Below, piece after piece: positions 6,766-28,109 of a stretch of 31,040 bases of DNA. How positions within the stretch are numbered: position 1 is the stretch's first letter; every line of letters begins with the position of its first letter. The position numbers and the translations under genes are program-made. Under the pieces are notes generated by a model. It worked only from the letters and a program-made list of their open reading frames with translations, made no database searches and was not told the origin of the DNA. The DNA comes from a virus. The stretch lies in IMG/VR virus record IMGVR_UViG_3300010885_029427, positions 1 to 31,040 of that record; one strand, given 5' to 3'.

Positions 6766-7271
6766 GGGGCGGTCTCATCCTGGGTCTCATGAGTCTCACC
6801 CGTAGAGGAGAAGATCCGGCGGGCCGCCTTGATGACGATGGCCATGTCGACCTCGGGGTAGGCCCAGCGATTGCAGTCCGCCAGCAGGTCTTCCATACCT
6901 CCCAGCCCACTTCGGGGATGGATGGGCAGGATCATGAGCAGTTCATCGCCTGTCTTGATCTTGCCTTGGATGTACTCACGGAGTCGGATGATCAATGTCC
7001 GCATCGTCCCACCGTTGCTAAATCCTCTCCAACTCCCATTGTAGTGTGTGTAAATGTAGCGCTTGCTGTAGCTGTCGTAGAAGCTGATACGGCTTTGCCC
7101 ATCGAAGAGCAGATAGCTGATGGAGCCTTCATGATTGAAGAACTTCCGCCCGTGCGTGGCGATGATGTTGATAAACTCATTGGCTTTCGCCAGTCGTTCG
7201 GCTTTGTCGGGCAGTGCCCGCAGGCGCGGGGTGGGCGATGCCCGGTAATAGCCTTGAGATGGGCTACACAT
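6762..7271 (-). CDS. Hypothetical phage protein (169 aa)
   Basis: The ATG at 7271 overlaps the end of the upstream 82-aa gene by eight bases, and the stop overlaps the next ATG as ATGA. The central part (residues about 25-95) looks like a small mixed alpha/beta domain. It contains FINIIATHGRKFFNHEG, a beta hairpin RISFYDSYSKRYIYTHYNG and a basic loop SWRGFSNGGTMRTLI. Strings of this kind occur in uncharacterised proteins of tailed phages. No catalytic motif is visible, and the function is unknown. Confidence 0.7.
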   Translation of the reverse strand: MCSPSQGYYRASPTPRLRALPDKAERLAKANEFINIIATHGRKFFNHEGSISYLLFDGQSRISFYDSYSKRYIYTHYNGSWRGFSNGGTMRTLIIRLREYIQGKIKTGDELLMILPIHPRSGLGGMEDLLADCNRWAYPEVDMAIVIKAARRIFSSTGETHETQDETAP

Positions 7272-13578: not shown

Positions 13579-14561
13579 GACTCCACCTTGCTCCAGTCGA
13601 TGACAATCGCCGGGTGTACTTCACCCAGGACGAGAGTCAGGGCGAAGCCCTTTGGGGTGCTATCGAGAACTGCCTCCTGAATGATCCCCACCAGGGCGTT
13701 GCGCTTGGCGCGGGTGGCGGGGAGCTGCTCCGCGTCGGATACGGGCTCGGGGGCAGATCGGCGAGTCTCAGTCTGAGTCTCATGAGACTTCGCCTTGGCC
13801 TCCGCCTCTGCGGCCTTGCGCTCGGCAGCTTCGGCCTTCTTCCGCTCCGCTTCGATGGCGGCCTCCGCCTCCTTGGCCTCTTTGGCTCGGAGCCGCTCCG
13901 CCTTGGCCTCCGCATCGGCTGTGGCTTTCGCGGCGGCGGTCTCAGCGATCTCCGCTTCGCGGCGAAGACGGGCGGCTTCCGCCTCCTCCTCCCGCTTCTT
14001 CTGCCTTGCGGCCTCCGCCTCTTCGTGGTCGATGGCGGCTTGCAGGGCCTCCTCCAGTGCGGCGCGTGTGATCTGGATCTCCGCGTCAGCCTTCGGGGTG
14101 AACTCCTCAAAGGTCGTCGGGTCGATCTCTGTGAGGGCGTCGAGGAGCTTCATGATCCGGGCGGAATCCCCGTGGGGGCCCCGGCGCATCTCGCTGATGG
14201 TGTCGATACCAGCTTCGTGATCAGCGATTCGCTCTTTTTCGGCCTCTTCGATGCCTTTGATGATCCGCTCATGCGGTTCGATCAGGGCGGTTACTCGCTC
14301 TGTCAGCTCCTTGGCGAAGCCGTTGACGTTGCGGATGTAGGACTGAGCTTCGTCGTTCTGCGCTTTGCGCGTACGGTCGATGGAGGTTCGGACCTGGCGG
14401 AGCCCGTAGATGTAGCTCCGGGCGGCCTTGTTAATCGCCGGGTTGCTGTAGTCACCGAAGGTTGTGACGGCTTTGGACTCTGCGATTTCGACTTCGGAGG
14501 TGATCCGGTCGAATGGGGTGAGGACCGTGGTGTCAAGGACTGGGCTTTTGGTGAGAGTCAT
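13575..14561 (-). CDS. Coiled-coil protein, phage recombination-type context (328 aa)
   Basis: The N-terminal 130 residues are helical (SYIYGLRQVRTSIDRTRKAQ, then AKELTERVTALIEPHERIIK). They resemble the DUF1351-like helical proteins common in phage recombination operons. Residues about 180-270 form a long Ala/Glu/Lys/Arg coiled coil (EAEAARLRREAEIAETAAAK). A small C-terminal domain (RNALVGIIQEAVLDSTP to VIDWSKVE) follows. It is very rich in Ala/Glu codons, so antisense frames look open too. The start overlaps the previous gene by ATGA. The role is unknown; scaffolding of a DNA-processing complex is possible. Confidence 0.75.
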   Translation of the reverse strand: MTLTKSPVLDTTVLTPFDRITSEVEIAESKAVTTFGDYSNPAINKAARSYIYGLRQVRTSIDRTRKAQNDEAQSYIRNVNGFAKELTERVTALIEPHERIIKGIEEAEKERIADHEAGIDTISEMRRGPHGDSARIMKLLDALTEIDPTTFEEFTPKADAEIQITRAALEEALQAAIDHEEAEAARQKKREEEAEAARLRREAEIAETAAAKATADAEAKAERLRAKEAKEAEAAIEAERKKAEAAERKAAEAEAKAKSHETQTETRRSAPEPVSDAEQLPATRAKRNALVGIIQEAVLDSTPKGFALTLVLGEVHPAIVIDWSKVES

Positions 14562-24977: not shown

Positions 24978-25197
24978 GACTTTTTCCTGAACCGGTGAGT
25001 CTGAGGCGGCGAGAGAGTTCATCGGCATAAGTGAACGCTTGATCTGCGTAATACCCTTCGCGGACGGGGTTAAACCCACGGAGGTTTTCCGCCACTTGGC
25101 GGCAGTCGCGGATAATGAAGCGGAGCGATCCGAGATCACAAGTCGCCGCATGGCTCCGCCAACGGGCGAAGTCCTGGGGGGTGGCGTATTCGATCAT
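24961..25197 (-). CDS. Hypothetical protein (78 aa)
   Basis: MIEYATPQDFARWRSHAATC then GSLRFIIRDCRQVAENLRGF and YADQAFTYADELSRRLRL. This helical pattern, with D-C-R-x-A...YYxDxAxTYxxEL, recurs in small phage and cyanophage proteins. The start shares ATGA with the upstream gene. Confidence 0.7.
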   Translation of the reverse strand: MIEYATPQDFARWRSHAATCDLGSLRFIIRDCRQVAENLRGFNPVREGYYADQAFTYADELSRRLRLTGSGKSHATTR

Positions 25198-25511
25198 GGG
25201 AGCCGTTCCATCACGAATGTGCCGTACTTGTCGGCTCCTATTGTGGAGAAACAGACGAGTCGGTAGGTAGCTCTTGGGTTGAATCGTGACAGAGCTTCTA
25301 ACACTGCGGCTAAATGATTCTCGTGCATAGTCAGAGAATAGTCCTTGGATTCAGAAGCTCGAACCATTCCGCAGTGAGCGATGAAGGCGGTGTTCCCGTT
25401 ACTATCAAGGGTTTTGACAGTTCGGACTACATCCAGGATCGGACGCGGCGTGGTAGTACGCCAAACGTCCATCGCGGCCCTGGCCGGATGAACAGTGATT
25501 GTCGCTGACAT
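25194..25511 (-). CDS. Hypothetical phage protein (105 aa), first gene after the ncRNA
   Basis: I start at ATG 25511. The frame is open to 25634 but that part overlaps the ncRNA and its terminator. The product is MSATITVHPARAAMDVWRTT then TAFIAHCGMVRASESKDYSL and ATYRLVCFSTIGADKYG, beta-rich. No Shine-Dalgarno is near the ATG; instead the shared leader element and a CGGGC-TCT-GCCCG hairpin lie directly upstream. Confidence 0.65.
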   Translation of the reverse strand: MSATITVHPARAAMDVWRTTTPRPILDVVRTVKTLDSNGNTAFIAHCGMVRASESKDYSLTMHENHLAAVLEALSRFNPRATYRLVCFSTIGADKYGTFVMERLP

Positions 25512-25521
25512 AGGTGTCAGA

Positions 25522-25549
25522 CGGGCAGAGCCCGGTGGTAGTTGGACAG
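25522..25549 (-). promoter_or_regulatory. Conserved leader element with hairpin, upstream of 25511 gene
   Basis: CTGTCCAACTACCACC (25549-25534) followed by a CGGGC-TCT-GCCCG hairpin (25534-25522), then ATG at 25511. It starts directly after the ncRNA terminator and has the same element-plus-hairpin order as at 21783. Confidence 0.6.
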
Positions 25550-25569
25550 AAAATGCCCCCGAAGGGGCA
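25550..25569 (-). terminator. Intrinsic terminator of the ncRNA
   Basis: On the minus strand TGCCCC-TTCG-GGGGCA is followed by TTTTC: a perfect 6-bp stem with a UUCG tetraloop and a short T run. Confidence 0.75.
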
Positions 25570-25623
25570 ATACGACATAGGGGGAATTGAACCACGGCTT
25601 GCGCCGTCCCGTAGGGCCCATAC

Positions 25624-25655
25624 GAAAAGCCCACCCCGTAACAACGGAGTGGGCT
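25624..25655 (-). terminator. Strong hairpin followed by TTTT inside the ncRNA 3' domain
   Basis: The arms AGCCCACTCCGT and ACGGGGTGGGCT pair with one G-T pair around TGTT, followed by TTTTC. It has the form of an intrinsic terminator. It also forms one branch of the domain closed by CGACATA/TATGTCG, so it may be structural, or an alternative 3' end. Confidence 0.45.
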
Positions 25656-26240
25656 AATCGCGCCTTGCCTAGCTTGCGCTAGGTATGTCGAAAGATTTTT
25701 TCGTTGTTTGACCTCAGGCCAACGAATTGAACCATAATACCTACATCCGTCGCATAACCCTGACGGTAGGGAGCCCTTGCGGGAGTGGGGCCATGTAGGA
25801 GCGCCCCGTATCTAAGCAGCAGGAGGCCCAACCCCCCTGAGAAGTGTGCGTAGGGCCTGACAACCCCCGGTAGCACACCGCATACCTGCTTGCACTGTGA
25901 GCCCGGTCCCTCTGCACGAGGATCCTGCTTGCTAACGACGGGATCTGGCTCTCACCGGCCTCCCCATCTAACGCACACTACTGCCCCCTCCGGTAATCCG
26001 GTGCTACTAGAAACCTCACCCCCATCAGCCGACATGAAAGTCGGGAGGGATTATCGGCCCGTTCGCCGCGCTTGCTCAGGATGATACCTGGCCGCCGGGA
26101 TTTGAACGTGCGCCACTACAGCCCATCAAAGGTCCGTAGCTCACAGCTATAGCTCCAGGGTCGGCCTGGCCCGCCGCGCATGATCGGATGCGCTATTTAT
26201 GGTCAGTTCACATAGGCGGTCGGTTCGGGAATGTGAAAGT

Positions 26241-26269
26241 AGTATGGCATGGATTGGCGGATCCGTCAA
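26241..26269 (-). promoter_or_regulatory. ncRNA promoter P3 (nearest)
   Basis: TTGACG (26269-26264), 17 bases, CATACT (26246-26241). Same GGATCCGCC spacer start as P1. Predicted start near 26234. Confidence 0.6.
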
Positions 26270-26363
26270 GCGGTTCGGCCGGCGCCGGATCCGGGAACGG
26301 ATCGCGACTGACGGGAGAGGAGATCCAGGGCGCGACGGCCGCCGGTTCTCTCCCGTTGGATCC

Positions 26364-26393
26364 AACCTACCACGGGATGGGCGGGATCGTCAA
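26364..26393 (-). promoter_or_regulatory. ncRNA promoter P2
   Basis: TTGACG (26393-26388), 18 bases, TAGGTT (26369-26364). The -10 box is the same as at 17435 and 30936. Confidence 0.6.
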
Positions 26394-26461
26394 CTGATTG
26401 GCCCGTCGGATCCGTGGGGATCGCGCAGCAAGAGGAAACCCGCCCGTGCGCGACGTGCGCG

Positions 26462-26490
26462 AGTCTACCACAGATCGGCGGATCCGTCAA
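26462..26490 (-). promoter_or_regulatory. ncRNA promoter P1 (farthest)
   Basis: TTGACG (26490-26485), 17 bases, TAGACT (26467-26462). TTGACGGATCCGCC is shared word for word with P3. The stretch 26270-26590 outside these boxes holds further GGATCC strings, a GAGTCT/AGACTC hairpin (26499-26515) and an A/T-rich leader before the plus-strand gene; I see no protein gene there. Confidence 0.6.
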
Positions 26491-26591
26491 GTTTGCTGGA
26501 GTCTTATCGAGACTCAGCCTGCGACAGGCACACTGTCTATATGGCACATACAACGTCTACAAAAATGTAAATATATGTAATTTTTTATGCT

Positions 26592-27185
26592 ATGCTTTCA
26601 GGGCATCTGATTCCTGAACCGGTGACCGAGCAGCTCTGTTTGAACCTGGGTGATGTCCCTGTAACCGTTGGGGGTCGAGTACCCAAGCCGATCCCGGAGG
26701 TAGTGTTGGAGCTATTCAGACTCTCATCTACCTCCCCGTCTGGTCTGGTGTGGGTTCATGATCGACCTCATAAGAGAACAAAAGCCGGTGACCCAGTTAT
26801 TGGTAGCTTGATCAACAACAAATATAGATTGGTTCATGTTCCAGGGCATGGGCCTCACTACGCCCATCGAATCGTTTACTTCCTACAGACAAAAGAGAAC
26901 CCAGGTCACATGGTTGTGAGGCATTTAGCCGATGGAGACTTGGTACTAGGTTACCAAAGTGACAACTTACGAGATTCGCAAGGGATACTTAAAAAGCCTA
27001 AGGAAGGGTACAAGACTTGTAGAATGTATGAATACAAAGGTGATACCTTCAATCTTACTCGCTTGTGCAAACGGTTAGAGTTGGACTACATGCGAATATA
27101 CCAAATGACACGAAAAGGTAGAGACATTAGAGAAGTATTGGCAGAGCATGGCTTTGCCGATGTGAAGCTACTATTTACTCCCTGA
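26592..27185 (+). CDS. HNH-like (homing-endonuclease-derived) protein with degenerate motif (197 aa)
   Basis: This is the only plus-strand gene. The segment SGLVWVHDRPHKRTKAGDPV, then YAHRIVYFLQTKENPGHMVV, matches the N-terminal part of cyanophage HNH proteins ('SGLxWK...KAGDxAGSL...YKAHRIVYFLHxG'). Where the family has V-D-H-x-x-G-x-x-x-x-N...NLR, this protein has VRHLADGD and YQSDNLRD. The D before H is R, and an expected Asn is absent, so nuclease activity is doubtful. The C-terminal LTRLCKRLELDYMRIYQMTR resembles the HTH found after HNH domains. The gene is visibly A/T-richer than its neighbours and converges on the sigma gene with a 15-base overlap, so it looks like an acquired element. 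Confidence 0.65.
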   Translation: MLSGHLIPEPVTEQLCLNLGDVPVTVGGRVPKPIPEVVLELFRLSSTSPSGLVWVHDRPHKRTKAGDPVIGSLINNKYRLVHVPGHGPHYAHRIVYFLQTKENPGHMVVRHLADGDLVLGYQSDNLRDSQGILKKPKEGYKTCRMYEYKGDTFNLTRLCKRLELDYMRIYQMTRKGRDIREVLAEHGFADVKLLFTP

Positions 27186-28109
27186 CATCTGCAGCCTCTC
27201 CATTTCAATCCTTAAATTATCCCTCCCTGACTTCAGCAACTGCCCGATCCTCGACTTGCTCAACTGCATATCGCTCGCTACCTCTTGCAGCCCCTTCTCT
27301 TTGACAACAATCTCCTCCAGCACATACCTCTCCTTCTCCGGCAGGCGCCGCATCGCGGCGGAGATCATCCGATGCTCTGCCGAAGGCAGGGCCAAGACGG
27401 GAGCTTCGCCGGGAGAGAGGGGGTCGAAGGGGGTGAAAGAGGAGGGAGGAGCGAAGCTGAAGCCGTCGTCCTCGGGGGAATCCACCGCCGGGATCAGCTC
27501 AATCAAGTTACTGCCTCCTTCGATGCCGGGGCGGTCGAGGCTTGCGGCCTCCGTCATGGCGTAGACCTGGCCGATCAGAAGCATGCGCTCAGGGCTGATC
27601 TTGGCGTAGGCGGCCAGCTCCTCCAGCGTGGGCTTCCGGCCTGTCCTTGACTGCATCTCCTGGCTGTACCGCTGAACCTTATTCAGCGTTTCGTAGTGGC
27701 CGATGGGAAGGCGGATGGTCCGCCCTTGGTTGTGTAGGGCTCTGGTGATGCCCTGGCGGATCCACCAATAGGCATAAGTGGAGATGCGGTAGCCGCGAGC
27801 CGGGTCGTAAAGCTCCAGGCCGCGAACCAGGCCGATGTTTCCTTCTTGTATAAGGTCGGAGAACTCCAACCCCTTGTGCTGAAACTTCTTCGCAATGGAG
27901 ACCACCATTCGTAGGTTGGTGTTCACCATCGCTTTCATGCTGTGGCGCCCCCGCCGCTCTACCGTCTGCTTTGAGGCTGTCTGTTCATGATACGAAAGTG
28001 GGTGCATCCATTCATGAATGCGGCGGCAGTGGAGAAGTTGAGCTTCCTCGCAAAGGATTGGGTACTTACCCACTTCCTGCATATAGCTGTGAAGTTCAGC
28101 ATTAGCCAT
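27171..28109 (-). CDS. Sigma-70 family RNA polymerase sigma factor (phage-encoded)
   Basis: This 312-aa protein has region 1.2 (SYMQEVGKYPIL, residues 8-19), region 2 with DLIQEGNIGL (85-94) and region 2.3/2.4 STYAYWWIRQGITRAL (110-125). It also has RTIRLPIGHYETLNK (130-144), region 3 (about 136-178) and region 4 with HTH LQEVASDMQLSKSRIGQLLK (about 274-293). The 'STYAYWWIRQGITRA' wording is typical of cyanobacterial group 1/2 sigmas. Between regions 3 and 4 is a Pro/Ser-rich insert (PPSSFTPFDPLSPGEAP). It probably redirects host RNA polymerase to phage promoters; candidates are the TAGGTT-type boxes seen here. Few phages carry such a complete sigma-70. Confidence 0.93.
   Translation of the reverse strand: MANAELHSYMQEVGKYPILCEEAQLLHCRRIHEWMHPLSYHEQTASKQTVERRGRHSMKAMVNTNLRMVVSIAKKFQHKGLEFSDLIQEGNIGLVRGLELYDPARGYRISTYAYWWIRQGITRALHNQGRTIRLPIGHYETLNKVQRYSQEMQSRTGRKPTLEELAAYAKISPERMLLIGQVYAMTEAASLDRPGIEGGSNLIELIPAVDSPEDDGFSFAPPSSFTPFDPLSPGEAPVLALPSAEHRMISAAMRRLPEKERYVLEEIVVKEKGLQEVASDMQLSKSRIGQLLKSGRDNLRIEMERLQMSGSK

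Follow-up and report, generated by a model that had tools for sequence, protein, structure and literature searches.

The locus, its phage and its relatives

The window, as the whole analysed stretch of DNA is called here, is the uncultivated virus record IMGVR_UViG_3300010885_029427 of IMG/VR, which is 31,040 nt long and contains genes for portal, terminase, dCTP deaminase, ThyX, dNMP kinase and a sigma-70 factor. Because the nearest named matches of ThyX were Synechococcus phages, which were also among the matches of the sigma factor, the host of this phage is likely a cyanobacterium. Following the sigma gene on the minus strand, three promoters (P1, P2 and P3) stand in tandem before a predicted structured non-coding RNA (Table 1). 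An HNH endonuclease-like gene on the opposite strand (26592-27185, plus strand) separates the sigma gene from the array; it is likewise placed in the related loci L007, L083, L085, L092 and L104, whereas a check of 25 further loci did not detect it there.

Table 1. Positions of the features of the locus within the window, in the order of transcription of the minus strand.
Feature	Position	Strand	Remarks
Sigma-70 factor gene	27171..28109	-	regions 2, 3 and 4 by Pfam
AT-rich stretch 5' of P1	26559..26592		same place in L003, L004, L007, L010, L014 and L019; by reading the sequences
Inverted repeat GAGTCTCGATAAGACTC, adjoining P1 upstream	26499..26515	-	diverged counterpart of the relatives' TGMGWCKCA boxes
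P1	26462..26490	-	TTGACG-17-TAGACT, extended -10 TGG; aligned with relatives
P1 leader (predicted)	26394..26455	-	folds no better than shuffles (z -0.3)
P2	26364..26393	-	TTGACG-18-TAGGTT, extended -10 TGG
P2 leader hairpin CGGGAGAG...CTCTCCCG	26311..26356	-	whole window leader z -1.5; counterpart covaries in 17 sequences from relatives
Second predicted hairpin of the P2 leader	26284..26308	-	directly ahead of P3
P3	26241..26269	-	TTGACG-17-CATACT, extended -10 TGC
Start-stop AUG-UGA in the P3 leader	26209..26214	-	ATG and immediate stop in the sequence
Structured non-coding RNA	25628..26234	-	both ends predicted; no Rfam match
Intrinsic terminator-like hairpin	25628..25655	-	12 pairs, then TTTTC

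The locus was not found in the literature searched. A blastn search of the window region against named phages returned only one short match (72%), inside the sigma gene, to an unannotated faecal phage record, and searches with cassette sequence of each of the five types A-E, described below, found nothing; the terminator pattern had no exact match among genome contigs.

Relatives were sought within IMG/VR by similarity to the sigma protein, which yielded 80 loci, the nearest of which keep the order of sigma gene, promoters, RNA and terminator, and by the conserved terminator sequence, which yielded 43 stretches, with a few more added by two further patterns. All 80 sigma-found loci were scanned for the array, and L003-L011, L013-L016, L018 and L019 were inspected closely, L008 extending only 189 bases past the sigma gene. 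The terminator-found loci L088, L115 and L117 were excluded because their upstream sequence was too short. Dereplication at 75% shared 15-mers of the terminator-found loci, the window, L003 and the terminator-bearing sigma-found loci left 31 loci; for the count of start-stop frames these were extended to 35 by L127, L128, L129 and L132, omitting L126 (a near copy of L085), L131 (a near copy of L127) and L130 (a pattern match without the array). All these loci are related and were partly picked by shared sequence, and the counts given below are not counts of independent events.

Promoters, upstream boxes and the sigma gene

The original prediction had proposed three tandem minus-strand promoters in front of the RNA, and their boxes were located exactly where it had placed them. 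The 14 bases TTGACGGATCCGCC, said to be common to P1 and P3, are indeed identical in both and have no other exact copy in the window. A distance of about 100 bases between promoters had also been given, which fits P1 and P2 (97) but not P2 and P3 (124). All three have the form of sigma-70-type promoters, with a TTGAC-like -35 box, a spacer of 16-18 bases and a -10 box of the form NANNNT, and all three possess an extended -10 (TGn). Judged by plain consensus, single boxes are each not significant alone: a sigma-70 consensus scan of positions 25000-27600 detected only P1 and P3 (9/12 each), with 1.8 detections in shuffles (sd 1.2), and P2, the -10 of which is weak, scored 8/12. The strict motif TTGAC-N13-16-TGNNANNNT gave four minus-strand matches in the whole window, three of them being the array, and one on the plus strand, compared with 0.34 per strand in shuffled windows and a maximum of 2 among 100.

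Across the 31 dereplicated loci the strict motif occurred 60 times in sense and never in antisense orientation, with 0.4 expected from shuffles; 23 loci had at least one match, 20 at least two and 16 at least three. It was absent in eight (L004, L006, L007, L010, L011, L013, L016 and L120), of which L004 displayed three looser matches, and no array of this kind was present in the 63 remoter sigma loci (L020-L082, together 592 kb). As a conserved set the promoters are not due to chance. Their composition was described from 68 promoters chosen by eye in 22 loci, each having no fewer than three TTGAC boxes, where the -35 TTGAC is at 100% by selection: the extended -10 had T in 87% and G in 93%, the -10 box had A in 97% and its last T in 99%, and the spacers of these TTGAC-selected promoters were 17 (44 promoters), 18 (23) or 16 bases (one) long. 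Within the 22 loci, distances were 89-121 between P1 and P2 and mostly 119-128 between P2 and P3, with 168 in L019, and four promoters were found in L014 and L102. Position, spacing and sequence of tandem promoters ahead of a non-coding RNA, which itself covaries, are thus kept across a phage lineage. The observation behind the original prediction is confirmed. That prediction had not included the extended -10, the leader hairpins, the mini-ORF, the linked sigma gene or the swapping of RNA cassettes.

Copies of the promoter resemble each other more within a genome than across genomes, with a P2-P3 spacer identity of 57% versus 42% (permutation p 5e-5) and a weaker effect for P1-P3 (p 0.011). 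On the compared sequences, this likeness is better read as homogenisation of the tandem copies, the alternative being co-evolution of the spacer with some factor. A gene-start motif ATTC..GAAC was dropped, being too sparse for use.

Just 5' of P1, relatives exhibit clusters of the nine-base dyad TGMGWCKCA (56 in 2,860 nt versus 30 in 244,175 nt elsewhere), positioned mostly at -19, -28, -48 and -82 from the -35 of P1. An initial palindrome search had been too narrow and was superseded by the wider one reported here. No exact box lies 5' of P1 in the window, L003, L004 and L014. Several relatives encode, directly before the array, a small protein that is in part HTH-like, mostly by weak Pfam matches; in others its gene is several kilobases off, and in the window it was not found. 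That this protein binds the boxes would be a guess. Additional TGAGWCTCA-like boxes were noticed in the window at 6781-6798, 12846 and 13762-13788, and a similar palindrome stands ahead of another TTGACA in L083, L092, L112 and L118.

In all 31 loci, including 18 that were retrieved without using sigma, the sigma gene is situated 5' of the array on the same strand, with 124 to 1,705 bases separating it from the promoter listed first for the locus. As to the protein itself, three alignments to principal sigma factors stop at residues 240-241, ahead of residues 242-312, and region 4 seems diverged, yet it is detected by Pfam.

Transcript leaders and exchanged RNAs

In most loci P1 is followed by a short GC-rich hairpin, while P2 is followed by a long hairpin and then a small second one. 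Folding with z below -2 was obtained for 21 of 24 P2-type leaders, but only for 8 of 22 P1 leaders. The P2 leader covaries: among 17 leaders from relatives, 20 of 24 pairs displayed changes on both sides, none of 500 shuffles reached as high a value, and slid controls were far lower. This alignment (A2), which replaced a poor first one of 21 leaders (A1), omits the window, L003, L004 and the first copy in L014, hence the window's own leader is not part of the result, and the inner part of the window's P2 hairpin is unlike that of most relatives. The hairpins begin at about the expected transcription start; since the script set the minimum start at 7, this agreement is descriptive and is no test. 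With two stem-loops in about 85 nt just behind the promoter, the P2 leaders correspond to the description of a put-like element (two stem-loops, about 70 nt).

The leader of P3 is of a different kind. In 28 of 35 loci it contains an AUG that is followed by a stop codon at once or after one codon, which is the arrangement of a two-codon minigene. ATGs of this kind made up 28 of 33 in P3 leaders versus 7 of 172 in the remaining cassette sequence, and shuffled P3 leaders contained them in 1.5 loci, at most in 8. All three stop codons are used and the middle codon is variable. A Shine-Dalgarno sequence, as judged by eye, is clear in L128 and L004 and not clear in most start-stop leaders. The seven loci without the start-stop are L009, L014, L015 and the four of cassette type E (L003, L007, L016 and L093). 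Of these type E cassettes it was further noted that they share an ACCTTGACAAyTnAATAG-like element (L003 7300-7480, where it occurs twice, L007 8826-8850, L016 and L093).

Behind the start-stop follows an RNA of roughly 500-600 nt in the family. At gathering score, Rfam produced no match for the window and 11 related loci, the GOLLD and ROOL models gave none in the window region or in L003 at E values of up to 5, and lenient searches of these two stretches yielded weak, implausible matches only. Neither ARAGORN nor Rfam identified a tmRNA gene in the window, and ARAGORN found no tRNA there, so that the proximity to tRNAs often seen with GOLLD and ROOL is lacking. The RNA is a member of none of the RNA families tested. 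Its predicted structure is backed by covariation among 12 chosen cassettes (those of type A together with L086, L127 and that of the window; L126 and L085 are near copies), in which 30 of 79 predicted pairs had double changes versus 11.9 in shuffles, with none of 500 shuffles as high; the window RNA forms 47 of 72 consensus pairs. An alignment of type B (A3) was kept out of these counts. Two small elements were observed besides: a T-arm-like GGTTCAATTC right after the terminator in the window (25583-25600, minus strand) and in L128, where it has the five-pair stem GGGGGTTCAAGTCCCCC, and a hairpin inside the RNA with the loop TTTCAT and differing stems in the window (about 26029-26046, minus strand), L014, L004, L094, L104 and L112.

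At least five cassette types, labelled A-E in this analysis, stand behind the array. In the pair L086/L094 the arrays are 96% and the terminators 99% identical, whereas the cassettes share 54%; shuffling, done for one pair, gave 53%. The pairs L096/L113 and L083/L104 are similar. Across the pairs, arrays with 95-96% identity stand before cassettes whose likeness does not exceed that of shuffled sequence. Judging from these comparisons, RNA cassettes are exchanged while the promoters stay. Short elements common to the cassette types were recognised by eye, and the types may have a distant common origin; the nearest relative of the window cassette is that of L086 (60%). The replacement of the RNA by very different RNAs suggests a role directed at the host or at competitors.

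Interpretation and comparison with known systems

The reading preferred here, to which a probability of about three in four is assigned, is that of a conserved expression block, similar to the promoter regions of rRNA genes, which would serve an abundant phage RNA in an uncultivated lineage probably infecting cyanobacteria. The block runs from the sigma gene over operator-like boxes, P1 with its hairpin, P2 with its long hairpin and P3 with the start-stop to the RNA and its terminator. Several sigma-70-type promoters with extended -10 would feed RNA polymerase serially into one stable-RNA gene, with a regulator at the boxes 5' of P1 setting the timing. Transcripts from P1 and P2 would start directly at the base of a hairpin or close to it, and that from P3 would carry the start-stop near its 5' end as a seat for a ribosome; hairpins and start-stop may thus shield the 5' ends from decay and let the RNA accumulate. 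Strong or timed expression of the RNA, as originally suggested, can fairly be inferred from this arrangement. The window itself is a less typical member, with no exact box, a weak -10 in P2, z values of -0.3 and -1.5 for the leaders of P1 and P2, and 47 of 72 consensus RNA pairs formed.

That the resemblance to promoters is a matter of chance in a GC-rich phage genome has a practically negligible probability, since the richness of the plain consensus scan, which did not exceed that of shuffles, is outweighed by the excess and strict orientation of the family matches, their conserved spacing and the lack of such a cluster in the remoter sigma loci. The operator role that the original prediction had considered possible for the repeated GGATCC is highly improbable as well: there are five sites between 26259 and 26485, and their number in the window is mildly raised (21 versus 12.6 expected, reached by 3 of 100 shuffles), but only 6 of the 68 family promoters possess GGATCC (GATC in 24), by which it was ruled out as the main conserved element, and the greater likeness of copies within one genome makes homogenisation the better reading of the shared GGATCC. 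The TGMGWCKCA boxes are the better candidate for an operator. A further question is which sigma factor reads the array. Region 2 of a sigma factor reads the -10 and region 4 the -35. If the phage's own sigma factor were used, the RNA would be a late or middle product and not an early one made with the host sigma; the constant upstream position of the gene on the same strand and the closeness of its region 2 to principal sigma factors speak for this, while in the three alignments the match to these factors ends before region 4 although the -35 is a canonical TTGAC, and a diverged region 4 together with a canonical -35 would fit the host sigma better. Use of the phage sigma factor is hence considered possible, yet rather doubtful.

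Other readings concern the leaders. By analogy, those of P1 and P2 might be the active part, a put-like RNA binding RNA polymerase and rendering it resistant to pausing and termination across a highly structured, untranslated RNA gene. The covarying pair of stem-loops right behind P2 is in favour of it, as is the account of HK022 putRNA, which describes about 70 nt with two stem-loops close behind PL (PMC9378689). Nevertheless, the likeness is one of description, P3 as the promoter nearest to the RNA is without such a leader in most types, and the inner part of the window's P2 hairpin deviates, for which reasons this is thought unlikely. It is more improbable still that hairpins and repeats act as DNA, for example as a replication origin or recombination site that the promoters would serve: long inverted repeats are conserved in non-coding DNA and cassettes are exchanged behind them, but the pair changes of the P2 leader include G-U states, which fit RNA better, and the spacing is tied to the promoters.

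An extension of the expression-block reading, put forward tentatively and expected to fail sooner than to hold, regards the locus as an RNA-cassette locus with a fixed chassis of sigma gene, operator boxes, at least two promoter-hairpin modules, a last promoter with start-stop, and terminator. Its exchanged large RNAs would be very abundant in infection, would engage ribosomes by means of the start-stop, would act against the host or competing phages, and would be replaced as their targets escape. If the block works as read, an uncultivated phage group gains one clear, testable high-expression locus, and several large RNAs unmatched in Rfam join the short list of big phage RNAs. Whole RNA genes swapped behind an unchanged array suggest that these RNAs serve as interchangeable tools and are under selection, and comparison of the cassettes makes the question of the function of large phage RNAs approachable.

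For single elements of the block, parallels exist in other phages and in bacterial genes. The P2 leader comes closest to HK022 putRNA, which has two stem-loops just behind a phage promoter (PMC9378689); the leader, however, is about 85 nt long and lies within tandem promoter units; the two were compared by description, and antiterminator activity of the leader is putative. The closest parallel for the start-stop is provided by two-codon minigenes, which likewise have an AUG, at most one codon and a stop in a 5' leader, and for one studied case of which translation was proposed to stabilise the mRNA by protection from nuclease (PMC8708949). In contrast, the phage start-stop precedes a non-coding RNA and is mostly without a clear Shine-Dalgarno sequence. 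The lambda bar minigenes are another minigene parallel. GOLLD and ROOL are, like the RNA described here, large structured RNAs of phages or prophages, and the expression of GOLLD is reported to rise during lysis and ROOL to equal 16S rRNA in abundance in one strain (PMC12286853). The present RNA differs from both in that it matches no Rfam family, in that the window has no tRNA island, and in its flanking genes.

Bacterial rRNA operons possess tandem promoters, an UP element and several activator sites. The array differs from these in being phage-borne, in its extended -10, in the hairpin leaders proper to its first two promoters, in the apparent homogenisation of its promoter copies and in an RNA that is swapped for others. 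Common to both are serial sigma-70 promoters about 100 bp apart, boxes at set places before the first of them, an AT-rich stretch in some members of the phage family, and a structured RNA behind; at the level of sequence the family, with the window as a member devoid of an exact box, thus exhibits the combination of tandem promoters and putative activator sites before the first promoter that characterises rRNA operons.
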